Notes under the pieces: generated by a model
Seen by the model: the letters and a program-made list of their open reading frames with translations, nothing else
Databases searched by the model: none
What the model was told of the DNA's origin: nothing
Translations under genes and position numbers: made by a program
Virus record (IMG/VR): IMGVR_UViG_3300035698_009562
Location: 1-35,433 of that record
Direction: 5' to 3' (one strand)
Origin: a virus
Length of the DNA: 35,433 bases
In this document: one piece after another, positions 1 to 35,433 of the stretch
Layout of the letters: the number at the start of each line of letters is the position of its first letter
Position numbering within the stretch: position 1 is the first letter of the stretch

Positions 1-33
1 GGTAATATTATAATGTCTGACGATCAAATATGA
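1..33 (+). CDS. 3' end of an upstream gene (partial)
   Basis: An open frame enters from the left edge and stops at the TGA at 31-33; its last residues are GNIIMSDDQI. The stop overlaps the ATG of the next gene in an ATGA arrangement, the pattern used throughout this plus-strand operon, which is the main reason to think it is real. Too little is visible to assign a function. Confidence 0.45.
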   Translation, partial: GNIIMSDDQI

Positions 34-881
34 AAATTATCGGAATTGGGCCATATGTTGGTGACTTTAAACAAGAATTATTAACCTTTAGGCCATATGT
101 TAAATGGTTATCTGAAGTCGTTGAGTATGATAATCTATATCTGAATACACATATAAACAGGCGATTTCTTTATGATTTCGTACCAGATGAGAATATAATA
201 CCTGTATATGAAATGTTTTCCAGAAACGAACTCGGTCAAAATGGTTATATGCATGGTGATTTATCTAAGAAAGATTTTATGTTATTGGTTAAGAAGTTCA
301 AAGAAAAGATCATTGAGATCGAGAACTGTAACAAGAATGAAGTCGATATATATTATTTGAACTATAGTAAGAACATTACTAATCATCCTTATTACAATAA
401 AATATTCGATGAGATACAAAAGCCTGATGATATAAGTATTCCAATAGAACATAAAAACAAAATAGTCTTTATACCCGATAGGAACGAAAATGTTAATAGA
501 TTAGGTGTATTGCTGGGATACTTACAATCCAAGTATGGTGATGAAGTTGTTACCGTTGGGAACATGGAATCATGGTTCTCTAGTGATAATGTGATATTGA
601 GGTTTCCAGATTACTTTGCTAATGGTTGGAAATACATTTTGAGCTATATATTAGAGTCCAAGTGTGTCATTTGTCCATTGAGTTACTGGACATCACTATG
701 TAATCTACAAAAAATACCTGTGTTCAGTTGGGGTGAGAATCCAAGCCAACATAGAATAGATGGTATGCTCAATTTTGATAATAATGGATGTGTAGTTGTT
801 CCATCTGATGATGATACAGATATACATGTTCTAATAGAATCTATGGATTATTTTTTAGATAGGAGTTTGATAGATGATTAA
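30..881 (+). CDS. Glycosyltransferase-like protein (possibly GT-B, GT9-like)
   Basis: This 283-residue protein has no signal peptide or membrane segment. The N-terminal half is poorly conserved to my eye. The second half, from about residue 150, resembles the nucleotide-binding half of a GT-B fold: a strand reading KIVFIPDR, a helix, then near residues 207-235 a segment with CVICPLSYWTSLCNLQKIPV. That segment recalls the place in heptosyltransferase-type (GT9) enzymes where a Pro-x-Ser-rich loop precedes a strand ending in Pro-Val. The start ATG overlaps the upstream stop. It sits apart from the main sugar cassette but could serve the same pathway. The family call is tentative, and an unrelated Rossmann-like phage protein remains possible. 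Confidence 0.5.
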   Translation: MKIIGIGPYVGDFKQELLTFRPYVKWLSEVVEYDNLYLNTHINRRFLYDFVPDENIIPVYEMFSRNELGQNGYMHGDLSKKDFMLLVKKFKEKIIEIENCNKNEVDIYYLNYSKNITNHPYYNKIFDEIQKPDDISIPIEHKNKIVFIPDRNENVNRLGVLLGYLQSKYGDEVVTVGNMESWFSSDNVILRFPDYFANGWKYILSYILESKCVICPLSYWTSLCNLQKIPVFSWGENPSQHRIDGMLNFDNNGCVVVPSDDDTDIHVLIESMDYFLDRSLIDD

Positions 882-1971: not shown

Positions 1972-2205
1972 ATGTTAGAGAAATTAGCAGATGTTCAGCA
2001 TAATATATTGTCACATTGGATGAGTTATATGTTTTCAGTATGTCAGGAACAGAGTGATGGTAGTATGGTAATCACACAGGATAAAGTTGAGAGATGGCAA
2101 AAACAAATGAAAACACCATACTCTAAACTATCCGAGTCTGAAAAAAATAGTAATAGAGATCAAGCCTTTAATGTTTTAAAAGTTGTACAAAAGGAGATGA
2201 TGTAA
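1972..2205 (+). CDS. Small protein resembling the RyR-domain motif
   Basis: This 77-residue protein reads HWMSYMFSVC, then a short turn, then RWQKQMKTPYSKLSESEK and a C-terminal helix. The stretch Trp, about seven residues, PYs-x-L-s-E-x-E-K followed by Asn-Arg resembles the core of the RyR domain (PYxxLxExEKxxDR), which appears in small phage proteins as well as in ryanodine receptors. The resemblance is from memory of the motif and is short. The role in phages is unknown. The gene overlaps the next by one base (TAATG). Confidence 0.55.
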   Translation: MLEKLADVQHNILSHWMSYMFSVCQEQSDGSMVITQDKVERWQKQMKTPYSKLSESEKNSNRDQAFNVLKVVQKEMM

Positions 2206-2486
2206 TGCCTGTTTTAGATTTTATTTGTAATGAATGTGATAATGAATTTGAATATATTGTGTTTGCTAACACAGAGAGTGAAAATAAAATGATTGTCTGT
2301 AGTAAATGTGGGCATCCAAATATAAGTCAATTATGCCCACAAGAATCTCCAAATTTCAAATTGAAATATGATAACAAAAAAGATTCTGTGGATTGGAATG
2401 GAAACACATCTAGATATTGGGACAAATATAAAGATATGAAAAAGAATGGCGAGGATCCTCGTATTCCAGAATTAGATGGAGAGTAA
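2205..2486 (+). CDS. FmdB-like zinc-ribbon protein
   Basis: A 93-residue protein starting MPVLDFICNEC with a second pair CSKC at residues 32-35, giving four cysteines in the order and spacing of the FmdB zinc ribbon. After the ribbon comes a basic/acidic tail (residues 48-93) with RYWDKYKDMKK and DPRIPEL, which is longer than in typical family members. It is the second FmdB-type protein within 1 kb, beside the interrupted copy at 1441. A structural zinc site and a role in binding a partner protein or nucleic acid are plausible; the actual function is unknown. Confidence 0.7.
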   Translation: MPVLDFICNECDNEFEYIVFANTESENKMIVCSKCGHPNISQLCPQESPNFKLKYDNKKDSVDWNGNTSRYWDKYKDMKKNGEDPRIPELDGE

Positions 2487-6547: not shown

Positions 6548-7714
6548 ATGGAACAAAAAAGTGTAATATTGTTGGGTTATGATGGATATATCGGAAATGC
6601 CCTTATACAAAGATTACTAAATTCCGGATACAAAGTTTTCGCAGTTGATAGTTATATGAGATCGAAATGGATCAGAGAGGACATGCACTCAATGTCCGCT
6701 ACAAGAATCGATCCACACAGAAGACATTTTTTAAGACCAATGGGTAATGTATCATTTTATGAATTTGATATAGTTAAGAATATAAAAGCCCTAGAATATA
6801 TGATAGAGAAAAGCAATGCTAGCATTGTAATAAATCTCGCACATATACCTTCCGCAGCATATAGTCAAAAATCCCACGAACATGCTAACATAACATTAAT
6901 AAATAATATAATAGGAACCAATAACGTTCTATGGTTAATGAAAGAGCATTTACCAGATGCTCATTATATAACTATTGGAACCACAGGCGAGTATGATCAT
7001 TATTCTAACATAACAATACCAGAAGGATATTGTAAGGTTAGATCAGATGGACGTACATCAAATGAGATGATTTATCCTCGCCGTCCTGGTTCTATATATC
7101 ATGTAAGTAAAACAGCATCAACATATCTAATTGATTTCTTGGATAGAGCATGGAATTTAAAATGTACTGATATAATGCAATCTATTGTCTTTGGTATGTA
7201 TACTGATGATATAGATAAATCTAAACTATGGAGTAGACTTGATAGCGATGAGGCCGGTGGTACAGTTATACATAGGTTTATTATACAATCTATTCTTGGA
7301 GAACCACTTACTATATATGGTGAAGGCAATCATCAAAGAGGATTTTTATCACTAAATGATAGTATTCAAGCATTAATGATTGCTGTAAATAATAAACCCA
7401 ATGTTGATAATAGAGTTCAAGTATGGAACCAATTATCAGAATGGCACTCAATGAATGATATTGCTGATATGGTAGTTGAAGTTGGTGACAAATTTGAGTT
7501 GGATGTTAAAAAACAGCATATAGACTCACCAAGAAATGAGTATACAGGTGATCATTTTTATAACTACAAAACAGACATATTAAAAAATTTCGGATACAAA
7601 CCAACTAGAACAATAAAACAAGAAATAGAATATATGTTTGAAAATCTTCTACCAGATAAGAAAAGATTAGAGCCTTTAAGAAGTGTTATTATGCCAAAAA
7701 TAAAATGGAGCTAA
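6548..7714 (+). CDS. UDP-sulfoquinovose synthase-like SDR epimerase (SQD1 family)
   Basis: A 388-residue extended short-chain dehydrogenase. The NAD site is LLGYDGYIGNALI (residues 8-20); GTTGEY (144-149) and YHVSK (184-188) supply the catalytic Thr and Tyr/Lys. Features typical of SQD1 rather than of ordinary epimerases are the region around PSAAYSQ (101-107), the EGYCKVRSDGRT segment, LTIYGEGNHQRGFLSLNDS (254-272), and the late SPRNEY followed by DHFYNYKTDIL. SQD1 converts UDP-glucose and sulfite to UDP-sulfoquinovose. If that activity is kept, the phage supplies a sulfonated sugar donor; a related dehydratase or epimerase is the alternative. It opens the sugar cassette, 12 bases after the endolysin. 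Confidence 0.8.
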   Translation: MEQKSVILLGYDGYIGNALIQRLLNSGYKVFAVDSYMRSKWIREDMHSMSATRIDPHRRHFLRPMGNVSFYEFDIVKNIKALEYMIEKSNASIVINLAHIPSAAYSQKSHEHANITLINNIIGTNNVLWLMKEHLPDAHYITIGTTGEYDHYSNITIPEGYCKVRSDGRTSNEMIYPRRPGSIYHVSKTASTYLIDFLDRAWNLKCTDIMQSIVFGMYTDDIDKSKLWSRLDSDEAGGTVIHRFIIQSILGEPLTIYGEGNHQRGFLSLNDSIQALMIAVNNKPNVDNRVQVWNQLSEWHSMNDIADMVVEVGDKFELDVKKQHIDSPRNEYTGDHFYNYKTDILKNFGYKPTRTIKQEIEYMFENLLPDKKRLEPLRSVIMPKIKWS

Positions 7715-7721
7715 TAAATTT

Positions 7722-8618
7722 GTGAATAAACCAAAGATTCTAATAATATCCGATGTATATGGATGGGCTTGGTATATAAAATCTTTACAAATAAAAAAAC
7801 ATTTGTTAAATGTTTTTGAAATAGATATAATATGGACAATAGGAAAAGATAAGACTTCCAAAATTCCTCTTAACTATGATGCGTATTTAACATATGGTTA
7901 CTCATATATTGATTTATTAAAATCGATTCCTAAGAATAAAAACTCAACAGGAGTAACCGCTCATAGAGATAAAAATCAAATGCCCAAAGTTATTTCAAAA
8001 ATAAAACAAGCTAAATACATTCATGCTAATTCAATGTTATTATATAATGAATTAGAACGATATAGTATTGAAAATATATATTACCTACCGAATGGTGTAA
8101 ACGAAGAACTATTCAAAGAAACAATTCCAATCCCAGTTAGTAATGATATTGTTATTGGTCATGTTGGAAAGAAATCCAATCGCAAAGGTCAACAAGAATT
8201 TATAATCCCTTCAATAAAAAAATCCCAAGCAGATAGTGTCATTCATTTTAATAAATATAGTAATGCTATACCACATAATAAAATGAATGATGTACATAAT
8301 TCTTATGATATTTTCATTTGTGCATCTTTGGAAGATGGCACGCCAAATGGAGCATTGGAAGCAGCAGCTTGTGGTAGACCAATTTTATCTAATAGAATCG
8401 GTAACATGCCAGAGTTTATAGAAGATGGATATAATGGATTTCTTGTAGAAAAGGAAATTAAAAATTATGTGAAAAAGATTAAATGGTTTAGATCACATAA
8501 AAATAAAATGATTGTAATGGGCATGAATGCTAGAAAGACAATAGAAGAAGGGTGGACTTGGAAAATTCAATCAGAAAAATATAAAAAAATGTTTTGGGAT
8601 ATGGTAAATGATAACTAA
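7722..8618 (+). CDS. Glycosyltransferase, GT4 family
   Basis: This 298-residue GT-B enzyme has a compact N-terminal half and a clear C-terminal donor-binding domain: YLPNGVNEELF (about 121-131), VIGHVGKKSNRKG (144-156) and the GT4 motif ASLEDGTPNGALEAAACG (201-218), where the acidic pair E204/D205 and E213 form the E-x7-E element, followed by GNMPEFIEDGYNGFLV. The start is GTG at 7722 with GGAG 11 bases upstream. It would transfer a sugar from a nucleotide donor with retention; donor and acceptor are not predictable. It overlaps the next gene by 11 bases. Confidence 0.88.
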   Translation: MNKPKILIISDVYGWAWYIKSLQIKKHLLNVFEIDIIWTIGKDKTSKIPLNYDAYLTYGYSYIDLLKSIPKNKNSTGVTAHRDKNQMPKVISKIKQAKYIHANSMLLYNELERYSIENIYYLPNGVNEELFKETIPIPVSNDIVIGHVGKKSNRKGQQEFIIPSIKKSQADSVIHFNKYSNAIPHNKMNDVHNSYDIFICASLEDGTPNGALEAAACGRPILSNRIGNMPEFIEDGYNGFLVEKEIKNYVKKIKWFRSHKNKMIVMGMNARKTIEEGWTWKIQSEKYKKMFWDMVNDN

Positions 8619-9582
8619 ATCACAATTTAAATCAAAAAGAAAAAAAGGTCTAAAAATATGTATTCTAGGTAACACAGGTAAAGATCCCATAAATGCATAT
8701 AGTTGGTTTGTCAGAACAACAACAGATGGTATGAGAAGAAATGGTCATGAAGTAGTTGGTATTGATTGGAAGTCATATTCTACAAATGAAATATCAGCAA
8801 GTCTAAATTTATATAAACCAGATATTTTATTTACACATATGACGTTTCATTTTCAACATCCCGTAGGTAACATATTAGAATTGTTTGAAGATTTAAGAAA
8901 AAAGTATAATACTATAATTGTGCATACATTACAGGATGCTATAAAAAATCCTCGTTATAGGTATGATATATCAGAATCTTTTGATTTAGCTCTTGTGAGT
9001 CAAACAACAAATCTAGAGAAATTTTCTAAAATATGGAAAATAAAAACATTCTATTGGCCTTATTCTTCTATGTATCAAGAAAAAATGGCAGAACCAGATC
9101 AAGAATATTATTTCAATGCTCCACTTTTTACTGGAAACCCTGGCATACATATAGATAGAAAAGCATTTATTAGAGCACTTCAAAGTATAATGCCTATATA
9201 TATGATAAAAACAAAAGGAGAAAAAGATTTAAGAAATAAAACACCAGAAGTGTCAGCATCGACATCCTGTATTCTTGGTTTATGTACAGGATATGATATT
9301 GATGGATATATAGATGTAAGACCATTTCAATACTTAGGCGCCGGTGCGTTTATGATAAACAGAAAATTTAAGAATCAAGAGAAATTTATTCCAGATGATT
9401 TATATATTCCATTTTATAATTATGATAATCCAGAATTAGTAAAAGAACTCTACATGGAATGGGAAAGCAAACCTGTGGAAAAACAAAAGATACAAAGAAA
9501 AGCATTTAAATATATGCAAAAACACAATAATAACATAATAAGATGTAAACAAGCATTAGATTATATAACGGAGGCGATTTAA
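8608..9582 (+). CDS. Glycosyltransferase, CgeB-like (GT-B)
   Basis: A 324-residue protein. The N-terminal Rossmann half begins KKGLKICILGNTG and includes YKPDILFTHMTFHF; the C-terminal half carries YIDVRPFQYLGAGAFMINRKF (about 240-260), which matches the R-x-F-E-x-x-A-x-G-x element of CgeB-type and Glyco_trans_1_2 enzymes, followed by EKFIPDDLYIPFYNYDNPELV. This motif normally contacts the nucleotide sugar. Substrates are unknown. The ATG lies inside the end of the preceding GT4 gene, and the stop overlaps the ATG of the sulfotransferase that follows, so the three are likely translated together. Confidence 0.8.
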   Translation: MITKSQFKSKRKKGLKICILGNTGKDPINAYSWFVRTTTDGMRRNGHEVVGIDWKSYSTNEISASLNLYKPDILFTHMTFHFQHPVGNILELFEDLRKKYNTIIVHTLQDAIKNPRYRYDISESFDLALVSQTTNLEKFSKIWKIKTFYWPYSSMYQEKMAEPDQEYYFNAPLFTGNPGIHIDRKAFIRALQSIMPIYMIKTKGEKDLRNKTPEVSASTSCILGLCTGYDIDGYIDVRPFQYLGAGAFMINRKFKNQEKFIPDDLYIPFYNYDNPELVKELYMEWESKPVEKQKIQRKAFKYMQKHNNNIIRCKQALDYITEAI

Positions 9583-10328
9583 TGAAAGCCGTTCTATTAA
9601 GTGATAAAAAGACAGGATCAACATTTACACAACACGCTATAAGTTCTCACCCAGATATAGAATGTTATGATGAAATGTTTATGAAAAAACATGGTAATAG
9701 AAAAAGAAGAGGACAAATTCTTTATAAAACTATGAGAAAAGAAAAGAAAATGAGTGTAAATCAATATCTTCAATGGATATATGAACAATCTTCAAATGCT
9801 TGTTTTAGATTGATGTATCCACATGATATTTATTATAATGTATTACCAGAAATTATGAGAATGAATATTCCTATAATACATCTTGTTAGAGAAAATCATT
9901 TTAAAAAAGTTATATCAAATTATACCTTAGGCAAAGTAATGAATGAGAAGATAGATATAAAACCCAATGCTCTTATTTCTGGTATAAAGGTATCAATAAA
10001 TAGTTTGAATAAGTATGAGAAAAAACTTAAAGGATACCCACATGTCTTTAAGATAAAGTATGAAGATATGATAGAATCTGTGGACGGCGAGATAAATATG
10101 AAGAAAATAAAAAGACTTGGTGGTTCAAATATAAAATCTAATGTTGTATCATATATGAATAAAGACTATTCAAAAATGATATGTGATTTATTTGGTGTTG
10201 AATATAATGATCTATATTCCAATGTCACAAAGAAAAATAAAGAAGATGTATTTGATTGCTTGATTCATAAGAAAAAAATAAGAAGAGCTATGAAAAGTCA
10301 TAAGCTTGATTATTTTCTGGAGATATAA
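9582..10328 (+). CDS. Sulfotransferase (PAPS-dependent)
   Basis: A 248-residue protein of the sulfotransferase superfamily. The 5'-phosphosulfate-binding loop is KKTGSTFTQ (residues 9-17); the 3'-phosphate-binding element is IIHLVRENHFKKVISNY (98-114) with Arg103 and Ser112 at the expected places; YEDMIES follows further on. The overall form (SHPDIECYDEMF after the loop) recalls Stf0-like and carbohydrate sulfotransferases. It would move sulfate from PAPS to a hydroxyl, probably of a sugar made by neighbouring enzymes. The APS-kinase-like gene at 21177 in the same operon could supply PAPS. Confidence 0.82.
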   Translation: MKAVLLSDKKTGSTFTQHAISSHPDIECYDEMFMKKHGNRKRRGQILYKTMRKEKKMSVNQYLQWIYEQSSNACFRLMYPHDIYYNVLPEIMRMNIPIIHLVRENHFKKVISNYTLGKVMNEKIDIKPNALISGIKVSINSLNKYEKKLKGYPHVFKIKYEDMIESVDGEINMKKIKRLGGSNIKSNVVSYMNKDYSKMICDLFGVEYNDLYSNVTKKNKEDVFDCLIHKKKIRRAMKSHKLDYFLEI

Positions 10329-11002: not shown

Positions 11003-11124
11003 TTTTAAATGGGGTCAGTTTAGAGATAAGAAACAAAAATTATGGATAAATGCTAATAAAGGCTCGAAATCTGTTAGTTTAAAAAAAGGTCAAGATTATT
11101 TAAAGAAATTGGGTATTGATTAAT

Positions 11125-11847
11125 ATGAAATATTTTTGTCTATTTATAGGGCCAGGGAGAAGTGGTCATAGTTTAATAACAGCTATATTAAATGCACATC
11201 CAAATGTTTATATTTCTAATGAACTTGGTTTATTTAAAGATGGTGGTTTTTATGCAAGTAATAAAAATACAATAGTAAATAGAGTATTAAATAAATATGA
11301 AAAAAAGAAAAATACATTGACTATGGGTAAATATAAATACGATATTAAAAAAAAACGGAAAGATGGTGATATTATTGTTATAGGAGACAAACATGGTAAT
11401 AATACATCAATGAATTTAAGTAGAAATTTTAATAGGTTGAATGAATTTAAAAAAAACATAAAGATTCCAATAAAATATATACATTCAGTAAGAAACCCAT
11501 TTGATCAAATAACAACAGAATCAATAAGAAGAAGTTTATCAATAAATGTGCTTATAAAAAGATATGGTATTATAATGAATGTTGTTAAAAAAATAAAAGA
11601 TAGTAGTGATCTATTAGAAATTAGTCATGAGGATATTATAAAATATAAAGATCGTGAAATAAAAAGACTTTGCACTTTTTTAGAAGTAGAACCTTTTGAT
11701 GATTATATTAAATCATGTACCGATGTTATATATGATAAACCACATCTTAGTAGATTTAAAAGGAAATGGAGTAATGAACAAAAAAATAGAGTAAACAGTA
11801 TAATACAAAAGTATGATTTTTTGAGCAAATACAAATTTGAGGAGTAA
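11125..11847 (+). CDS. Second sulfotransferase (PAPS-dependent)
   Basis: A 240-residue sulfotransferase-superfamily protein starting MKYFCLFIGPGRSGHSLI. GPGRSGHS (residues 9-16) is the 5'-phosphosulfate loop and IHSVRNPFDQI (119-129) the 3'-phosphate element. The typical partner strand before NELGLF is present, and the late ISHEDII resembles the family's 'YEDL' segment. It differs clearly from the sulfotransferase at 9582, so the two probably act on different positions or sugars. The ATG at 11125 is chosen over an in-frame TTG at 11116, because the ATG abuts the stop of the restored frame of the gene before. Confidence 0.82.
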   Translation: MKYFCLFIGPGRSGHSLITAILNAHPNVYISNELGLFKDGGFYASNKNTIVNRVLNKYEKKKNTLTMGKYKYDIKKKRKDGDIIVIGDKHGNNTSMNLSRNFNRLNEFKKNIKIPIKYIHSVRNPFDQITTESIRRSLSINVLIKRYGIIMNVVKKIKDSSDLLEISHEDIIKYKDREIKRLCTFLEVEPFDDYIKSCTDVIYDKPHLSRFKRKWSNEQKNRVNSIIQKYDFLSKYKFEE

Positions 11848-15489: not shown

Positions 15490-16425
15490 ATGATAGGAAT
15501 TACTGGTGGATGTGGATATATAGGAATGGCGTTAGCTGAAAGAGCTATAAAAGAAGGATATAAAGTTAGAATAATTGATAAGAATATCAAAGGACTAATG
15601 GATGATCGTATAGAAATTGTTGAGGGTGATATAACAAATAAAAAGGATATAGATATATTCTTAGATAAAATAGATTTTGTTTTCCATTTGGCCGCTCAAT
15701 CTAATGCTAGAGAATGCAGTCATGATATAGAGCACAGTTTAAAGTTAAATACATTATCAACAAGATTATTGCTTGATGGTGTTAAAGATTCCAATATATC
15801 TGGATTTTTATTCTCATCATCTATTGTTGCCTTATATGGTGATCCGGAGTATATCCCACTAGATGAAAACCATCCTATAAAGCCTGTAAATGATTATGGT
15901 GTATTGAAGAGATCATCAGAATTATTTTGTCAATCATATTACAGATCATTTGGTGTACCGACAGTTATACTAAGACAATCAACTGTGTATGGCCCATCGC
16001 CTTCAATGAAGTATGATTCCGCTATTCATAATTTTATTCTCAAAGCAATAAATAATGATAAAATAATTGTGTTCGGAGATGGGAACCAAAAGAGAAATTT
16101 CTTATGGCTTGGTGATCTTGTAGATACATACATAGAGATTTACAAAACAATGAAAGAAAGTAGAAATATTGCTGGTGAGATATTCAATGTATGTGGGCCT
16201 GATGAGTTTACAATAAGAGAGATAACAAGAAAAATAAGTAATATAAGTGAATCGGATCTAAAGAAGAAACCAGATATAAACTTCACAGCACTATTGAATG
16301 AATCGATGTCAAGAGAGTTAAAAATATCTAATGATAAATTATTTGAAAATGTTGGTATAAGACCATCAACAAAAATAAGAGATGGTCTTGAAATATTGTT
16401 TGATTATATAAAGGAGAATAATTAA
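15490..16425 (+). CDS. NAD-dependent sugar epimerase/dehydratase
   Basis: A 311-residue extended SDR enzyme with GGCGYIG (residues 6-12), VEGDIT (44-49), FHLAAQSNARE (65-75), SSSIVALYG (109-117) and the catalytic YGVLK (Y136, K140). The segment VFGDGNQKRNFLWLGDLV (about 195-212) and NVCGPDEFTIREI are the standard nucleotide-sugar region. It resembles UDP-glucose/UDP-glucuronate epimerases in general; the specific sugar is not resolvable. As it directly precedes the aminotransferase, it may feed that enzyme or act in parallel. AAAGGAG precedes the ATG. Confidence 0.9.
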   Translation: MIGITGGCGYIGMALAERAIKEGYKVRIIDKNIKGLMDDRIEIVEGDITNKKDIDIFLDKIDFVFHLAAQSNARECSHDIEHSLKLNTLSTRLLLDGVKDSNISGFLFSSSIVALYGDPEYIPLDENHPIKPVNDYGVLKRSSELFCQSYYRSFGVPTVILRQSTVYGPSPSMKYDSAIHNFILKAINNDKIIVFGDGNQKRNFLWLGDLVDTYIEIYKTMKESRNIAGEIFNVCGPDEFTIREITRKISNISESDLKKKPDINFTALLNESMSRELKISNDKLFENVGIRPSTKIRDGLEILFDYIKENN

Positions 16426-17507
16426 TGAATAACGTAAAAGTATCATTCCCAATAGTTGATGATAATGAAATAAAAGCTGTAACGGATGTATTGATGTCTG
16501 GTATGTATACATCTGGTAAGAATGTAGATAAGTTTGAGAAAATGTTTGCCGAATATATTGGTACCGAATATGCTGTGGCTTGTAATTCTGGGACATCTGC
16601 TATTCATCTTGCCTTGATATATTTGGATATTGGATTTGGGGATGAGGTTATAGTCCCATCCATGTCATTCTTTGCTACGGTCTCGCCAATATTAATGGTC
16701 GGTGCTAAGCCTATATTTATTGACGTAGATAAGCAATGTAATATCAATGTAGAACAGATTGAAGAATGTATAACATCTAATACAAAGGCTATAATGCCTG
16801 TTCATTTCTATGGTATGCCCTGTAATATGGATGAGATTGTTCACATTGCTAACAAATATAATATACACATAATCGAAGATTGCGCTCAGGCACATGGTGC
16901 TAGTCTTAATGGTAAAGTGGTTGGGTCTTTTGGTGATGCTGGTTGTTTCTCATTCTTTGCCACAAAGAACATGACTACAATTGAAGGTGGAATGATAACA
17001 ACTAACAACAAAAGAATGTATGAGCTGTTGAAAAAGATCAGATCACATGGTATGACTGATCGACATACCCATACATATCTTGGTTATAATTATAGAATGA
17101 ATGAAGTATCAGCAGCTGTTGGGATCGAGCAATTCAAAAAGCTTGAATACTTTAATGAGAAAAGAACAGAGAATTCATTGTATATATATAAGAGCATAGA
17201 TAAGAGATATCAATTATATGATTTAAGTCAATGTGAAGAAAAACGATGTGTGTTCTTCTGGTGCCCTATAGTTACTACTAATAGAGAGGCGTTTTTAGAT
17301 CATTTGAAAGAAAAGAAAATTGGATTCAGACATCGATACAATTATCCATTATATAGACAGCCTATATTTAAGAACGAGTATAATGATTTGAATTTAATAT
17401 TATCTGAACTTTATAGTAAATCTGTTGTTGGTCTTCCAAATCATCCTGTCATGACTCAAGAAGAATTAGATAGAGTTGTTGATGCTGTCAATACATTTAA
17501 AATATGA
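16425..17507 (+). CDS. PLP-dependent sugar aminotransferase, DegT/DnrJ/EryC1 (WlbC/WbpE-like)
   Basis: A 360-residue aminotransferase with the DegT/DnrJ/EryC1/StrS pattern: NSGTSAIHLAL (54-64), DEVIVPSMSFFAT (73-85), PVHFYG (125-130), IIEDCAQAHGAS (149-160) with the PLP-contacting Asp, and the Schiff-base lysine in FFATKNMTTIEGG (K181). It transfers an amino group, normally from glutamate, to a keto nucleotide sugar. With the WlbA-like dehydrogenase and WlbB-like acetyltransferase downstream it would fit the WlbC/WbpE step (3-amino sugar); with the PglD-like acyltransferase next to it a 4-amino sugar is equally possible. The stop overlaps the acyltransferase start by 4 bases. Confidence 0.9.
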   Translation: MNNVKVSFPIVDDNEIKAVTDVLMSGMYTSGKNVDKFEKMFAEYIGTEYAVACNSGTSAIHLALIYLDIGFGDEVIVPSMSFFATVSPILMVGAKPIFIDVDKQCNINVEQIEECITSNTKAIMPVHFYGMPCNMDEIVHIANKYNIHIIEDCAQAHGASLNGKVVGSFGDAGCFSFFATKNMTTIEGGMITTNNKRMYELLKKIRSHGMTDRHTHTYLGYNYRMNEVSAAVGIEQFKKLEYFNEKRTENSLYIYKSIDKRYQLYDLSQCEEKRCVFFWCPIVTTNREAFLDHLKEKKIGFRHRYNYPLYRQPIFKNEYNDLNLILSELYSKSVVGLPNHPVMTQEELDRVVDAVNTFKI

Positions 17508-20314: not shown

Positions 20315-21180
20315 AAAGATATGCTTTAATTGGTGCCGCTGGATACATCGCACCAAGACATATGATGGCAATAAAAGAAACTGGTGGTGAACTCGTTGCC
20401 GCTTTGGATATAAATGATTCGGTAGGTATTCTTGATAAATACTTCCCTCATTGTATCTTCTTTCTTGAGTTTGAGAAGTTTGATAAGTATTTGGAGAGAC
20501 TAAAGAAAAGTGGAAAGGGTGTTGATTATATTGTTATATGTTCACCAAATTATTTTCACGATGCACATTGTAGACTGGGTATGAAAGCTGGTGCCAATAT
20601 TATATGTGAAAAACCAACTGTCTTATGTCCTTGGAATCTCGATGAACTAAAGGATATAGAGCTAGAAACTGGTAAGAAAGTATATAATATTCTACAACTT
20701 AGACTACATCCCTCTATGATAGAATTAAAGAAGAAGATTAACAAGGATCAGAAGTATGTTGTAAACCTAGAGTATATAACACCAAGGGGGCCATGGTATG
20801 ATATTTCGTGGAAGGGTGACGAAGATAAATCTGGTGGTATTTTAATGAACATAGGTATCCACTTTTTTGATTTACTGTCATGTATATTTAATAACAAGCT
20901 TGAAAAATATGAAATTGATATAGATACAAAATATACAAAATCTGGAAAAATATACATGAAAAATGCCAAGATAGATTGGTTCCTATCAACTAGTACAAAA
21001 TATGATTCGAAATATAGGAACCTTACTATAAACGATGAAGAGATAAGATTTGATGATGTGTTTGAAGATTTACATACATCTGTATATAAAGATATACTTA
21101 ATGGTGATGGATTTGTGATAGATGATTGTAGACCTTCTATTGACTTAATTTATAAAATGAGAAGTAATATAAAAATATGA
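20311..21180 (+). CDS. UDP-GlcNAcA 3-dehydrogenase, Gfo/Idh/MocA family (WlbA/WbpB-like)
   Basis: A 289-residue NAD-dependent oxidoreductase. ALIGAAGYIAPRHMMAIKETG (from residue 5) and LDINDSVGILD (32-42) are nearly the WlbA/WbpB sequence; CSPNYFH (77-83) and CEKP with K101 are the Gfo/Idh/MocA motifs; NIGIHFFDLL (180-189) supplies His184. WlbA oxidises C3 of UDP-N-acetylglucosaminuronic acid before transamination and acetylation. With the DegT aminotransferase (16425) and WlbB-like enzyme (19886) the core of the UDP-diacetamido-glucuronate route is present. The UDP-GlcNAc 6-dehydrogenase that feeds it is not in the window. Confidence 0.9.
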   Translation: MKRYALIGAAGYIAPRHMMAIKETGGELVAALDINDSVGILDKYFPHCIFFLEFEKFDKYLERLKKSGKGVDYIVICSPNYFHDAHCRLGMKAGANIICEKPTVLCPWNLDELKDIELETGKKVYNILQLRLHPSMIELKKKINKDQKYVVNLEYITPRGPWYDISWKGDEDKSGGILMNIGIHFFDLLSCIFNNKLEKYEIDIDTKYTKSGKIYMKNAKIDWFLSTSTKYDSKYRNLTINDEEIRFDDVFEDLHTSVYKDILNGDGFVIDDCRPSIDLIYKMRSNIKI

Positions 21181-21572
21181 GTAATACAATAATAACCGGC
21201 AGAGCTGGATCCGGAAAGACCACACTTGCAAAGGAAATAAAAAGTAGTTGTTTATATTATGGTACAATATGTGTTATACTTGATGGTGATGATGTTAGAA
21301 TAGATTTCGATAATGGATATTCTGATGATGGAAGATTAGAACATATTATCAGAATGGGTAAGTTTACTAACATCTTAAACAGGCAGGGGTATAGTGTTAT
21401 AATCGCCGCTATATTACCAACAGTTGAGTGGCGAAATAAACTTCGTGAAGTTATAGAAAAAGAAAGTGATTTGATATACATTCCAGGTGGTGGTTTATGG
21501 GAAGGAACTACTTATGAAGAACCAATAGATGAAGAGAATTATGAGATACGTGATTGGAGAAAGTATAAATGA
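21177..21572 (+). CDS. Compact adenylylsulfate (APS) kinase-like P-loop kinase
   Basis: A 131-residue kinase. Walker A is GRAGSGKTT (residues 8-16); ILDGDDVRIDF (34-44), SDDGRLEHIIRMGKF (49-63) and QGYSVIIAAILPTVEWRNKLR (70-90) match APS kinase (CysC) motifs in order. The usual protein is 170-200 residues. Here the segment that would carry the PLEVCExRDxKGLY region is missing, and the end (GLWEGTTYEEP) matches the final family block. APS kinase makes PAPS, the sulfate donor needed by the two sulfotransferases of this operon. The deletion raises the chance of another specificity or lost activity. ATGA overlaps on both sides. Confidence 0.75.
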   Translation: MSNTIITGRAGSGKTTLAKEIKSSCLYYGTICVILDGDDVRIDFDNGYSDDGRLEHIIRMGKFTNILNRQGYSVIIAAILPTVEWRNKLREVIEKESDLIYIPGGGLWEGTTYEEPIDEENYEIRDWRKYK

Positions 21573-22261
21573 AATGTGAAATAAAAATTGTGAAGAAGTG
21601 TAAGAGTCCTAAGATATTGGTATCAACTCCTTTATTACCAGGCCATAAAATAAGTAAAGTTACTAAAAAGACATTAAAGAGAAATGATATTGATTATGAT
21701 TGGTTATCTTGTAGTGGTGATAATAACATACCAACTAATCATAAACTTTGTATGGAGTGGTACAAAAAGAATATAGGAGAGTTGCCACACTATACATTCT
21801 TTCTTGATAGAGACATTGATCTAGGTAGACATGCTCTTGATAGATTACATAATACTTTAAAAACCAATTCTTTTAGAAGTGATAAGATTATTGGATATGC
21901 TTATGCTTCTTTTAAATATACAGGATATGTGAATCATGATTTTCCCGCCATTCCATTCGATCCAAAGAAACTTCTTCAATCTAATTATATAAGCTCTAAT
22001 TCATTGTATTGGACAGAAATTATAGAAAAAGTTGGGTTGGTTACTGATGATAAGTATAAAAGATTACTTGATTATTGTTTCTTTTTAAAATTAATATTAT
22101 ATAAATGCATTATAGGGGTGCCATGCCCAGAAGCTAAGTTTAAAGTTATTTCTACACCAGATGATATTTCATCTGGTGATAATAATGATTATATGATAAA
22201 AATGAAAAGAGTACAGGAGGATTTTATTATACCAATAATTAAAAAATATGGAAATTTATAG
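21569..22261 (+). CDS. GT-A glycosyltransferase-like protein
   Basis: A 230-residue protein. SPKILVSTPLLPGH near the N-terminus is a first GT-A strand; HYTFFLDRDIDLG (residues 74-86) carries a D80-R-D82 metal-binding motif; SSNSLYWTEIIEKVGLVTDD (142-161) resembles the acceptor-side segment of GT2 enzymes, where an aromatic and a following Asp contact the acceptor. The N-terminal lysine-rich stretch is unusual. It is the last gene of the sugar cassette; its final 14 bases are overlapped by the GIY-YIG endonuclease gene. Donor and acceptor are unknown. Confidence 0.68.
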   Translation: MKCEIKIVKKCKSPKILVSTPLLPGHKISKVTKKTLKRNDIDYDWLSCSGDNNIPTNHKLCMEWYKKNIGELPHYTFFLDRDIDLGRHALDRLHNTLKTNSFRSDKIIGYAYASFKYTGYVNHDFPAIPFDPKKLLQSNYISSNSLYWTEIIEKVGLVTDDKYKRLLDYCFFLKLILYKCIIGVPCPEAKFKVISTPDDISSGDNNDYMIKMKRVQEDFIIPIIKKYGNL

Positions 22262-29791: not shown

Positions 29792-31378
29792 TTATGCGTC
29801 ATTATTGTAGAGTGCTGTTACTTGGCCTGCTGTTAGGGCTGTGTTGTATATTCTAAGTTCATCTATATCTCCATCGAAATAGTTATAACGATAAGGAGGA
29901 TTAAACCAAGGATACACACCCACATGAAGTAGCTCTCGTTGGCCATCCGTGTACAACGACCCCCAGGTAGACATATCTAAAAGATATAACTTTCCATTAT
30001 TAGAATCATTAGCAGCAGATAGTTCTGTTCCATTAAGATAAACATGAATATAATCACCCTCAACAAAACTAACTACAATGTGATTCCATCCTGTAGAGCC
30101 ATTAGGGAGAGCATCTATATTATTAAATAATGTACCCGTAAGATAATTAACATAATTATAATGTCTTGTATTGTATCGAACATCAATACCACCAGCTGCA
30201 TTTACGCTTAATCCAAACCTTGCTCTGAGTGATCCTAAATAACTATAAGAAGTACCTAAAATCGTCTCTTCACTATCAGGCTGACCATCAGGCATATTGA
30301 TCCAAGTGGAAATACTAAAGCTACTCCTAAAGATAGTTTCCATCTCACTAAAAGTCATACCAACTTCAACATAATCATCAGATCCATCGAAATTTAAGGC
30401 ATTATTTGTTGTTCCTGTTGTCCAATTACCATCTGTTATGTTATAAGATGTACCATCATATGAATTGACACTACTATCTGAAACCGACATTCCTGTCGTC
30501 TCGTCAAACTTATAATGAAGCACCATATCTGAATCGGATGGCATATTAGTTGGTGGTGTAACTGGTGGTATAACTGGTTCTGGCATTACCAAATCATCAC
30601 CTCCTAACCCATCTCCAAATTCTTCCATTTTAGTTATAGTGTCACCATCTTCATCCTTCCATCCTATTATTAGATTTCTTTGACCACCGGCCGGTGCCGC
30701 TGATACCGTAGTCGATGAAAATGATCTCGATTCAAATACATCTTGATTGGTATAATAGCTAGTTACGATTCTGTCTATAACACCAGAATCTGAAATAGGC
30801 TTGAATAGATATGTCTCGACCAAAAAATCAAGAGTATAATTCAGAACTCTATAATCCTCATCAGCCATTTCGAGTGAAACTTCAGGCGTGCAGCTCTGAA
30901 ACATAACTTTGATATCATATGTACAACCAAGCTCTGGTATATTCATTTTTATATATATGAAGGGATCAAAGAATGGTAAAACTTGCTCAAGTATTTGATC
31001 TATATCACTCATATGAAGTGACCATACATTTAATGTAAATGTTAGATTATATGGGATCGGTAGCAAATATCTAGAAGTAGTAAGACCATCAGTATCGGTT
31101 GTATTAGACATCTGGAAAGTAGAATTGGTTTTTCTTTCTGTTGCATAGTCTATTGATGAAATCCAGCCTGTTATCATTGGCAACATTTGATCGTCTTTTC
31201 TTTCATTCAACCAATACCAAGTTTTCTCTTTAACAGCAAGCTTTACGGGCACATCTATATACTTATCAACAGTTGATCCATCTCTAAGATATCTAACAAC
31301 TTTAAGATCATTGAAAACATCCATGAATTGTATGATTGTCTTTCTAAATGCCTTATAGTAATAATAAGTTCTAGCCAT
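29792..31378 (-). CDS. 15: Tail sheath terminator gp15-like protein fused to a LamG-like domain
   Basis: Residues 1-260 follow T4 gp15: YKAFRKTIIQFMDVFNDLKV, YIDVPVKLAVKEKTWYWL, MITGWISSIDYAT, PIPYNLTFTLNVWS, IDQILEQVLPFFDPF and TLDFLVETYLFKPISDSGVIDRIV. gp15 caps the sheath and joins tail to head. A Pro-rich linker (262-282, PEPVIPPVTPPT) leads to about 245 further residues with the concanavalin-like LamG_3 pattern: VLHYKFDETTG, ALNFDGSDDYVEVG, SISTWINM, WNHIVVSFVEGDYIHVYLNG and FDGDIDELRIYNTALTAGQV. Such domains bind glycans. T4 gp15 has 272 residues and no such domain, so this is a fusion that may display a sugar-binding module at the neck. Confidence 0.87.
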   Translation of the reverse strand: MARTYYYYKAFRKTIIQFMDVFNDLKVVRYLRDGSTVDKYIDVPVKLAVKEKTWYWLNERKDDQMLPMITGWISSIDYATERKTNSTFQMSNTTDTDGLTTSRYLLPIPYNLTFTLNVWSLHMSDIDQILEQVLPFFDPFIYIKMNIPELGCTYDIKVMFQSCTPEVSLEMADEDYRVLNYTLDFLVETYLFKPISDSGVIDRIVTSYYTNQDVFESRSFSSTTVSAAPAGGQRNLIIGWKDEDGDTITKMEEFGDGLGGDDLVMPEPVIPPVTPPTNMPSDSDMVLHYKFDETTGMSVSDSSVNSYDGTSYNITDGNWTTGTTNNALNFDGSDDYVEVGMTFSEMETIFRSSFSISTWINMPDGQPDSEETILGTSYSYLGSLRARFGLSVNAAGGIDVRYNTRHYNYVNYLTGTLFNNIDALPNGSTGWNHIVVSFVEGDYIHVYLNGTELSAANDSNNGKLYLLDMSTWGSLYTDGQRELLHVGVYPWFNPPYRYNYFDGDIDELRIYNTALTAGQVTALYNNDA

Positions 31379-32734: not shown

Positions 32735-35433
32735 TTAAGTTAAATAAAAAATTAGATTTGTTGTTGTGTTTATATATTCTGGTTCTACTCTAACTGGGTT
32801 ATTTACTATAACAAGAACTTGATCCAGTATTGTCCAATTTGCCTCAAGTAGATCTAATTGAATGGTATTATCAAAGTAAGCCATAGAGCTTGATGAACTA
32901 GACTCGGATGAAGAACTTTGACTAGATGAACTCGATGATTCGGAACTCGAACTCGATGATTCGGAACTCGAACTCAAAGAGCTTTGTGAGCTTGATGAAC
33001 TCGATTCAGAACTCGATGAACTACTTGAACTTTCAGAACTCGATGATGACTCGGAACTTGAGCTAGATGACTCAGAACTCGAACTCGATGAGGACTCGCT
33101 TGATGAACTCGATGATTGTGAACTCGATGAACTCGAGCTTTGACTCGATGAACTCGATGATTGTGAACTTGACGAACTCGAGCTTTGACTCGATGAACTC
33201 GATGATTGTGATGATGATGATTGTGATGAACTTGACTCTGAACTCGATGAGGACTCACTCGATGAACTACTAGATTCTGAACTCGATGAACTCGAAGAGG
33301 ACTCGCTTGATGAACTCGATGATTGTGATGAACTAGATTGTGATGAACTGGATTCACTGCTCGATGAACTACTAGATTCTGAACTCGATGAACTACTAGA
33401 TTCTGAACTCGATGAGGACTCGGAACTCGATGATTGTGAACTTGAACTCGAACTTTGAGAACTTGAACTCGATGAGGACTGAGAACTCGATGATGAGCTT
33501 TGTGAACTCGATGATGAGCTTTGTGAACTCGATGAACTTAAACTCGATTGTGATGAAGAACTTGAACTTGAGGATTCACTGCTCGATGAGGATTCACTGC
33601 TCGATGAGGATTCACTACTTGAGCTAGATGAAGACTCGGAACTCGAGCTTGATGAAGACTCGGAACTTGACGAACTCGATGATTGTGAACTTGAACTCGA
33701 TGAACTTTGACTCGATGAACTCGATTCGCTGCTCGATGAAGATTCGGAACTTGAACTCGATTCGGAACTCGATGAACTAGAACTTTGACTCGAAGAACTC
33801 GATGAGGATTGTGAACTCGAAGAACTCGATTGTGAACTCGAAGAACTCGATTGTGAACTCGATGATGCCGAACTCGATGAGGACTTACTACTAGAACTTC
33901 TAGAGCTTGAAGATGTTGAGCTTGAGGACTCACTACTTGAGCTACTAGATTGTGAACTCGATGATGAACTCGAAGAAGATTCTGAACTTGAGCTACTAGA
34001 TGATTCTGAACTTGAGTTTGATGATGATTCTGAACTTGAGCTACTAGATGATTCTGAACTTGAGCTACTAGATTGCGAACTTGAACTTGATTCACTGCTC
34101 GATGAGGATTCTGAACTTGAGCTACTAGATGATTCTGAACTTGAGCTACTAGATGATTCTGAACTTGAGCTTGATGATGATTCTGAACTTGAGCTACTAG
34201 ATGATTCGCTTGATGAACTACTTGAACTTTCAGAACTCGATGATGACTCTGAACTCGAAGAACTTGATGTTGAAGAACTCGAAGAACTCGTACTACTTGA
34301 GCTTGATTCTGAACTTGAACTTGATGATGCAGAACTTTGACTCGAAGATTCACTACTCGATGAGGATTCGCTCGATGAACTTGATGAGGATTCACTGCTC
34401 GAACTTGAACTTGAACTCTCAGAACTTGAACTTGAAGATCCACTACTCGATGAGGATTCGCTCGATGAACTTGATGAGGATTCACTGCTCGAACTTGAAC
34501 TTGAACTCTCGGAACTTGAACTCGAAGATTCACTACTCGATGAAGATTCGCTCGATGAACTTGAACTCTCAGAACTTGAACTTGAAGATCCGCTACTCGA
34601 TGAGGATTCGCTCGATGAACTTGATGAGGATTCACTGCTCGAACTTGAACTTGAACTTGAACTTTCAGAACTTGAAGAACTCTCACTGCTCGATGAGGAC
34701 TCGCTCGATGAACTACTTGAACTTTCGGAACTCGATGAACTTGAACTCTTAGAACTCGACGAAGATTCGCTCGATGAACTCGATGAGGATTCACTGCTCG
34801 AACTTGAACTTGAACTTTCAGAACTTGAACTTGAACTCTCGGAACTTGAACTCGATGAGGACTCACTCGATGAACTACTAGATTCTGAACTCGATGAACT
34901 CGATGAGGACTCACTCGATGATGAACTCTCGGAACTTGAACTCGATGAGGATTCACTCGATGAACTACTAGATTGTGAACTCGATGAGGACTCGCTCGAT
35001 GATGAACTATCCGAACTCGATTCTGAACTCGATGAACTAGATTGTGAACTCGATGAACTATCCGAACTCGATTCTGAACTCGATGAACTATCCGAACTCG
35101 ATTCTGAACTCGATGAACTAGATTGCGAACTCGATGAACTAGATTGTGAACTTGATGAACTATCCGAACTCGATTCTGAACTCGATGAACTAGATTCTGA
35201 ACTCGATGATGAACTCTCACTCGATGATGAACTCTCACTCGATGAACTACTAGATTGTGAACTCGAGCTGGATGAGGACTCAGAACTCGAGCTAGACGAT
35301 TGTGAACTCGAACTTTTGGAACTCGAAGAACTCGAATTTGATGAGGACTCAGAACTCGAGCTAGACGATTGTGAACTTGAACTTTTGGAACTCGAAGAAC
35401 TCGATTGAGAACTCGAAGAACTCGATTGAGAAC
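32735..35433 (-). CDS. Giant serine-rich repeat protein (5' end beyond the window)
   Basis: One minus-strand frame is open from the right edge to the TAA at 32735-32737, giving at least 898 residues. About 849 of these (32885 upward) are almost wholly Ser, in blocks of four to six or so broken by single Glu or Gln, with rare Lys, Asn, Leu, Ala, Arg and Thr. All six Ser codons are used in near-repeats. A 49-residue ordinary domain closes the protein (MAYFDNTIQLDLLEANWTIL to NLIFYLT). A TTG at 32977 in the same frame is not needed as a start. Position in the late operon suggests a virion component, such as a fibre or decoration stalk. It could be O-glycosylated; see findings. Confidence 0.8.
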   Translation of the reverse strand, partial: SQSSSSSSQSSSSSSKSSSSQSSSSSSESSSNSSSSSSKSSSSQSSSSSSESSSSSSSQSSSSSSESSSSSESSSSSSESSSSSSESSSDSSSSSQSSSSSSQSSSSSSESSSDSSSSSESSSDSSSSSQSSSSSSESSSDSSSSSESSSSSQSSSSSSESSSSSSSESSSSSESSSSSSSSESSSSSSESSSSSSSESSSSSSESSSSSSSSESSSSSSSESSSSSKSSSSSSSESSSSSSSESSSSSESSSSSESSSSSSSSSSESSSSSSSESSSSSGSSSSSSESSSSSSESSSSSESSSSSSESSSSSSSSESSSSSSSESSSSSGSSSSSSESSSSSSSSESSSSSSSESSSSSESSSQSSASSSSSSESSSSSTSSSSSSTSSSSSSESSSSSESSSSSSSESSSSSSSESSSSSSSESSSSSSSESSSSSSSESSSSSESSSSSQSSSSSSESSSSSSSESSSNSSSESSSSSSSESSSSSSSSSQSSSSSSESSSSTSSSSRSSSSKSSSSSASSSSQSSSSSSQSSSSSSQSSSSSSSQSSSSSSSESSSSSESSSSSESSSSSQSSSSSSSQSSSSSSSESSSSSSSESSSSSSSESSSSSESSSSSESSSSSSSSQSSLSSSSSQSSSSSSQSSSSSSQSSSSSSSQSSSSSSQSSSSESSSSSESSSSSSSESSSSSSSESSSSQSSSSQSSSSSSESSSSSSSSESSSSSSESSSSSESSSSQSSSSQSSSSSSQSSSSSSSQSSSSSSQSSSSSSSQSSSSSSESSSSSSSESSSSSSESSSSSESSSSSSSSESSSSSSQSSLSSSSESSSSSSESSSSSSQSSSSESSSSSSMAYFDNTIQLDLLEANWTILDQVLVIVNNPVRVEPEYINTTTNLIFYLT
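32885..35433 (-). repeat. Degenerate tandem-repeat DNA encoding poly-serine
   Basis: About 2.5 kb built from short units such as GAACTCGATGA, GAACTTGAGCT and GATTCACTGCTC (plus-strand view), with larger repeats of roughly 50-100 bases in 34.3-34.7 kb and again near 35.0-35.4 kb. All unit changes keep the codon register of the serine frame. The array extends past the right edge, so its total length is unknown, and it is a likely site for recombination and assembly collapse. Confidence 0.85.

Follow-up and report, generated by a model that had tools for sequence, protein, structure and literature searches.

SQD1 is the plant enzyme behind the sulfolipid head group. Its NAD-binding G-XX-G-XX-G motif has been described, and in its homologue Agl3 of Sulfolobus acidocaldarius alanine replacement of His95, Arg101, Met145, Tyr182 or Lys186 gave inactive enzyme, replacement of Thr144 kept activity, and replacement of Glu147 or Tyr148, residues needed for the dehydration step, left 12-15% of it (PMC4388408). 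This mutant evidence comes from one archaeal enzyme only; Arg101 is essential for the overall activity of Agl3 (PMC4388408), and sulfite binding by this residue is shown neither in the accessible text of that paper nor in that of PMC8987622. By the fingerprints given in the accessible text of PMC8987622, [ST]MG marks UDP-sulfoquinovose synthases, 4,6-dehydratases are recognised by an acid/base pair that follows the catalytic Ser/Thr ([ST]DE, DK or SE), and GalE has no such pair; the acid/base residues of SQD1 are still listed there as unknown. Haloarchaeal homologues annotated as UDP-sulfoquinovose synthases form a distant 'cluster IV' (PMC4388408), a Mu-like virus from the Cariaco Basin has been noted to carry a putative synthase (PMC7785012), and in the accessible part of PMC11806900 sulfoquinovose appears only in a reference. 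The literature searched, which most subscription papers lie outside, yielded no description of a virus-dominated branch of this family without Arg101.

An SQD1-family gene on a phage contig

The window analysed here, a virus record of 35,433 bases, is the contig of a phage with T4-type virion genes: a major head protein, tail sheath, tail tube and head protease are encoded on its minus strand, and the first-pass annotation was thus right to call the gene at 6548..7714 (plus strand) phage-borne. That gene is a real, full-length open reading frame of 388 amino acids, from ATG to stop, and a whole-length SQD1 match at E 1e-60 rules out a chance frame. Sequence and fold matches to SQD1 assign its product to the SQD1 family of NDP-sugar short-chain dehydrogenases/reductases. 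Among PDB sequences the best phmmer match is SQD1 itself (1qrr, residues 4-387, E 1.4e-60; 32% identity to 1i24/1qrr), and UDP-glucuronate decarboxylase, the family next in line, aligns over some 90 residues only, at E 1.9e-10. An AlphaFold2 model was computed from 22 sequences (pLDDT 89.3, pTM 0.91); a fold search with it returned 1i24 as the best match (TM 0.92, rmsd 2.0, 390 columns), and the best TMq among the 47 non-SQD1 matches listed was 0.70, which rules out an ordinary epimerase misread as SQD1. The alignment includes the SQD1-specific segments and is accompanied by the G-XX-G-XX-G and T...YxxxK motifs of the SQD1-like superfamily, so that the earlier claim of a protein following SQD1 along its whole length is borne out.

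The NCBIfam model for UDP-sulfoquinovose synthase, NF041015, spans residues 5-387 with 342.1 bits (E 3.9e-102), short of the 575 bits set as its curated cut-off. Four further viral-clade members all fall short of it as well; the cut-off is strict, only one of 14 control genomes passing it. Pfam recognises general short-chain dehydrogenase/reductase families only (PF01370, E 1.5e-20), PHROGs assigns the protein to nucleotide-sugar epimerase, and NCBIfam galE gives 15.3 bits for a cut-off of 262.3, which leaves it outside the GalE family. GalE-type 4-epimerase chemistry is possible for this protein despite that score.

Active-site residues and phylogeny

The catalytic core is preserved around an altered pocket. 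The motif GYDGYIG (residues 10-16; 6575..6595, plus strand) has the invariant glycines of the SQD1 NAD-binding motif, and YHVSK (residues 184-188; 7097..7111, plus) supplies the catalytic Tyr184 and Lys188. Where sulfoquinovose synthases have H-x-x-E-Q-R, the alignment places NLAHIP (residues 96-101; 6833..6850, plus), in which, in Agl3 terms, His95 has become Asn and Arg101 Pro; in GTTGEYDH (residues 144-151; 6977..7000, plus) Thr145, Glu148 and Tyr149 are kept, and Met146 and Gly150 of SQD1 have become Thr and Asp. The Agl3 residues were located through the primer contexts H-F-A-E-Q-R-S-A-P and G-T-M-G-E-Y given in the accessible text of PMC4388408, so the comparison, in which the window reads N-L-A-H-I-P-S-A-A and G-T-T-G-E-Y, is one of motifs and not of the full Agl3 sequence. 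Two of the five Agl3-essential residues, Tyr and Lys, are kept. The Thr145, Tyr184 and Lys188 named in the first-pass annotation are accordingly all present, but its second catalytic threonine, 146, sits where SQD1 and Agl3 have Met. As to the sulfite-binding residues whose absence it named as a refutation, the counterparts of Agl3 His95, Arg101 and Met145 are absent; these are essential, though not shown to be sulfite ligands.

These changes characterise a clade. In its 24 sequences (the window, L004-L010, L017, L018, L020-L032 and L034, with L018 identical to L017), His has become Asn and Met has become Thr or Ala in all 24, Tyr and Lys are present in all 24, and at position 101 there are 22 Pro and two Ala (L006, L009) but no Arg. 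Relative to Arabidopsis SQD1, the window replaces His96 by Asn, Glu99 by His, Arg101 by Pro, Met146 by Thr, Gly150 by Asp and Gln261 by His, and these replacements are fixed or nearly so in the viral clade, except that of Met146 (Thr or Ala); Met146 also varies in Arg101-type viral sequences, eight of which have Thr or Ala. Comparison of 18 window-clade with 65 Arg101-type sequences gave 81 SQD1 positions each conserved to at least 90% in both groups, of which 22 differ between them, including Glu99 (His in the window clade), Gly150 (Asp), position 151 (His) and Gln261 (His); the NAD glycines, Asp32, Thr145, Tyr149, Ser180, Tyr182, His183, Lys186, Arg263 and Arg327 (SQD1 numbering) are kept in both. 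In place of the [ST]MG fingerprint the window has T-T-G and the clade T-T-G, T-A-G or S-T-G; the T-T-G of the window also lacks the acid/base pair of NDP-sugar 4,6-dehydratases of the RmlB/GMD type.

Close relatives of the window protein come from uncultured virus contigs (seven loci in one scan, 22 in another). A single weak match (E 4e-9) was found among 50,697 annotated phage records, and in cells the clade profile seldom matched at E 1e-40 or below in the three groups searched: it did so in one of 147 genomes from the G006 phylum, four of 294 from that of G007 and two of 379 from that of G005. A single-protein viral scan with L033 returned only L033 itself, and a scan of a genome collection with two short patterns returned three loci, of which L019 was dropped because it does not truly belong to the family. 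The SQD1-like gene of L017 and L018 lies in a 10.7-kb stretch that is identical in the two and that binning placed in both a Parcubacteria MAG and a WOR-3 MAG; since these MAGs are unrelated, at least one placement is wrong, and the stretch is probably a mis-binned phage contig.

For the wider family we used the best 80 of 134 and the best 80 of 95 relatives from viral scans with mixed and canonical alignments; both scans started from patterns biased towards the query's own type, and group sizes are thus not abundances. By their residues at the His, Arg, Met, Tyr and Lys positions, 166 distinct sequences divide into HPMYK (69), HRMYK (54, including four from plants or cells), NPTYK (11), NPAYK (9), NPMYK (6) and others (17); the frameshifted L009 and L056, which lies on the same contig as L010, were left out of these counts and of the trees. 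On a 130-row tree made with the trait columns blanked, and with sequences shorter than 345 aa or more than 85% identical to a kept one removed, the window lies within a clade of 72 (SH-aLRT 100), none of which has Arg101, and Arg against non-Arg at this position requires only two changes. On a 46-row tree a branch (93/95) separates the Arg101-type rows from the others, and the window clade is supported at 100/100. An AU test rejects a grouping of the window clade with Arg101-type synthases (p-AU 2.0e-12 on the 46-row tree; 0.009 with the intermediate NLAQQ group added), and the clade does not cluster with characterised synthases in these tests, which use a tree without Agl3 and cyanobacterial SqdB, with several unsettled inner forks and with a long Haladaptatus branch. 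Among the rows used, the window's branch has no characterised member. The protein does not fall among ordinary epimerases, the placement that the first-pass annotation named as a refutation, but it lies outside the Arg101-type synthase clade; this placement, with the loss of Agl3-essential residues, leaves the proposed synthesis of UDP-sulfoquinovose, and with it of a sulfonated sugar, unsupported.

Loss of three residues essential in the tested homologue might also be expected of a relic, a host SqdB that is in decay or has given up catalysis, and one relative, L009 (8001-9153), has its SQD1-like gene interrupted by a frameshift near the start, by sequencing error or in reality. Such a relic is nonetheless highly improbable: dN/dS is 0.145 between the window and its nearest relative, L007, and 0.07-0.16 over five pairs, and this purifying selection argues against decay, which in its simple form we reject; the replacements are, moreover, fixed across the clade, and the catalytic Tyr and Lys are invariant.

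Other viral members of the family look different. In the retained scan relatives (best 80 of 134 and best 80 of 95), 50 distinct viral SqdB-like sequences keep all of His, Arg, Met, Tyr and Lys, in genes on viral contigs L131-L133 and L140-L205; judged by these residues, they are better candidates than the window gene for viral UDP-sulfoquinovose synthesis. A family without a Pfam match, glycosyltransferase-like by eye, occurs in 47 of the 80 SqdB-like scan loci (best 80 of 95), often as the adjoining gene; the glycosyltransferase next to viral SqdB-like genes gave no convincing match to SqdD of Palleronia. SQD1-like genes without Arg101 in L052-L130 often lie among replication-like genes, and a dCMP-deaminase-like family (PF00383) is found in 35 of these 79 loci, directly upstream in 24 gene pairs (best 80 of 134).

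A predicted glycosyltransferase partner and the intervening cassette

A cassette of about 14 kb separates the SQD1-like gene from the gene at 21569..22261 (plus). It contains glycosyltransferases, two NAD epimerases, an aminotransferase of the DegT type (16425-17507), hexapeptide acyltransferase-like and methyltransferase genes, two sulfotransferase-like genes (9582..10328, plus, PF00685, E 1.1e-5; 11116..11847, plus, PF13469, E 6.8e-7) and an APS-kinase-like gene (131 aa; 21177..21572, plus, PF01583, E 3.9e-17), which would supply PAPS; a GT4-like glycosyltransferase (7722..8618, plus, PF13692, E 7.3e-14) lies directly 3' of the SQD1-like gene. Upstream, a neighbour with no assigned function (30..881, plus), for which a PDB profile search gave chance matches only, has homologues in 14 of the 23 window-clade loci, and a small protein with CxxC motifs (2205..2486, plus) is conserved in 13 of 23.

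The protein encoded at 21569..22261 has no match in Pfam or PHROGs and only chance matches in a PDB profile search; its predicted structure (pLDDT 83.8) matches the GT-A glycosyltransferases AvpGT, WrtF, TarP and SpsA (E ~1e-7 to 1e-6), and it contains a DRD motif. Homologues occur in 13 of the 23 window-clade loci. In nine compact loci (L004, L024-L031) this GT-A gene follows the SQD1-like gene at no more than 214 bp, with a gap within 15 bp in L004, L029, L030 and L031, and in L032 the two are about 1.1 kb apart. Among the genes listed, phage structural genes flank the pair in L004, L024 and L029, and no second sugar-modifying gene was recognised beside the SQD1-like gene there. One dehydrogenase/reductase together with one transferase seems to be the constant unit, and in the window the large cassette looks to have been inserted between the two; the pairing with a single GT-A transferase in the compact loci suggests that the SQD1-like enzyme makes its product in one step.

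We consider it improbable that the enzyme acts without sulfite as a dehydratase and releases a 5,6-ene or 4-keto-6-deoxy sugar, to be finished by cassette enzymes such as the DegT aminotransferase. Agl3 does form UDP-Glc-5,6-ene without sulfite (PMC4388408 and PMC8987622, accessible text), the retained Glu148 and Tyr149, counterparts of Agl3 Glu147 and Tyr148, lean towards SQD1-like chemistry, and the window cassette offers both an aminotransferase and hexapeptide acyltransferase-like genes. The absence of an acid/base pair speaks against a 4,6-dehydratase, and in L004, L024 and L029 a finishing enzyme would have to be supplied by the host.

Sulfation is a less constant feature. The two sulfotransferases with which the gene was first thought to share a pathway are indeed in the window cassette, as sulfotransferase-like genes, but the association is not general: a sulfotransferase was detected in the flanks of seven of 23 window-clade loci (the window, L008, L017, L020, L022, L023 and L034) and in none of the compact ones, in flanks that differ in length and with remote sulfotransferases liable to be missed. 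A tight tie of the SQD1-like gene to sulfation is rejected on this count. It is unlikely, though not far-fetched, that the protein is a true UDP-sulfoquinovose synthase with a rebuilt sulfite site, whose phage glycan would carry both sulfonate and sulfate, or that its product is a related sulfonated sugar, for instance a sulfo-aminosugar, as sulfoquinovosamine in Haloarcula would be. The SQD1 fold over the whole length, the retained Glu148/Tyr149 and the APS-kinase-like and sulfotransferase-like genes are consistent with a synthase, and because UDP-sulfoquinovose is itself the one-step product of a single enzyme, which fits a stand-alone enzyme paired with a transferase, the product may yet be sulfonated. 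On the other side stand the replacement of three of the five essential residues throughout the clade, its position outside the Arg101 clade, the 16 of 23 loci in which no sulfotransferase was seen, and the failure to recognise a sulfite-forming gene among the window proteins scanned. The strongest caution against a loss of sulfonation comes from the haloarchaeal cluster IV, annotated as synthases and also divergent, of which the Haladaptatus plasmid protein L036 is likely an example: this putative synthase has, like the window, Pro at 101 and Thr at 146 and lies outside the Arg101 clade, and differs from the window in keeping His96, in its long branch and in its placement apart from the window clade.

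Two further features lie on the minus strand of the window. An open frame on the minus strand (32735-35433), which runs past the window end and adjoins a head-closure gene, contains an 866-residue, mostly serine stretch of SSSSSSE/Q repeats, and a run of this kind also closes a relative on another contig (L218, 13349-13642; contig 3300028883_000508); the serine stretch could be an acceptor for phage glycans. The tail sheath stabiliser (29792-31378, minus; phrog_227) has a C-terminal extension that matches the virion family phrog_8510 (residues 294-525) and appears LamG-like by eye.

A remodelled active site on the SQD1 fold, compared with known enzymes

The window gene is a real, conserved, phage-borne variant within the known SQD1 family. 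As the best explanation, to which we give about an even chance, we propose that it codes for an NAD-dependent modifier of UDP-hexoses that no longer takes part in UDP-sulfoquinovose synthesis and passes a one-step product to the GT-A transferase. Retention of Tyr, Lys, Thr and the NAD site implies oxidation of an NDP-hexose at C4; with a UDP-hexose as substrate, bound NAD+ would carry out this step by means of Tyr184, Lys188 and Thr145, and the remodelled pocket (Asn96, His99, Pro101, Thr146, Asp150, His151 and His262) would complete a conversion that, with three of five essential residues gone, we judge more likely to be independent of sulfite. This conversion would most likely be an epimerisation, the epimer, arrived at by exclusion, being itself a guess, and the paired transferase would use the product in assembling a glycan carried by the virion or the host surface. 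Family, fold, retained and replaced residues, clade, selection and gene pairing are observed; substrate, chemistry, product, the role of each new residue and the location of the glycan are proposed. More tentatively, and with somewhat less confidence than an even chance would express, we suggest that a large, virus-dominated branch of the family, present in environmental phages, has used the sulfoquinovose-synthase scaffold to evolve a new sugar-nucleotide reaction, with the window clade the most remodelled, having new conserved histidines in the catalytic loop and a dedicated glycosyltransferase.

Automatic annotation can take viral SQD1-like genes for genes of sulfolipid or sulfonated-glycan synthesis. 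We suggest that viral copies with His, Arg and Met be regarded as plausible UDP-sulfoquinovose synthases and that those without Arg101 not be given this name until assayed. The clade also provides a natural set of SQD1 active-site variants with which to ask which residues add sulfite.

Against the known systems, the window protein resembles GalE-type UDP-glucose/galactose 4-epimerases in its extended short-chain dehydrogenase/reductase fold, its Tyr/Lys and its lack of an acid/base pair, and differs from them in fold similarity (TMq no higher than 0.70) and in having no whole-length sequence match. Viral SqdB-like proteins (for example L140-L164, on IMG/VR contigs) belong to the same family and, like the window, to contigs classed as viral, but they keep all five residues and group with SQD1 and SqdB in the tree. 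Agl3 is of the same family and shares the catalytic Tyr and Lys, whereas three residues essential to it are replaced in the window. With Arabidopsis SQD1 (PDB 1i24, 1qrr, 1i2b) the window protein has in common its fold, whole-length homology, the NAD motif, Thr145, the catalytic Tyr and Lys, and the Glu-Tyr that follows the catalytic Thr.
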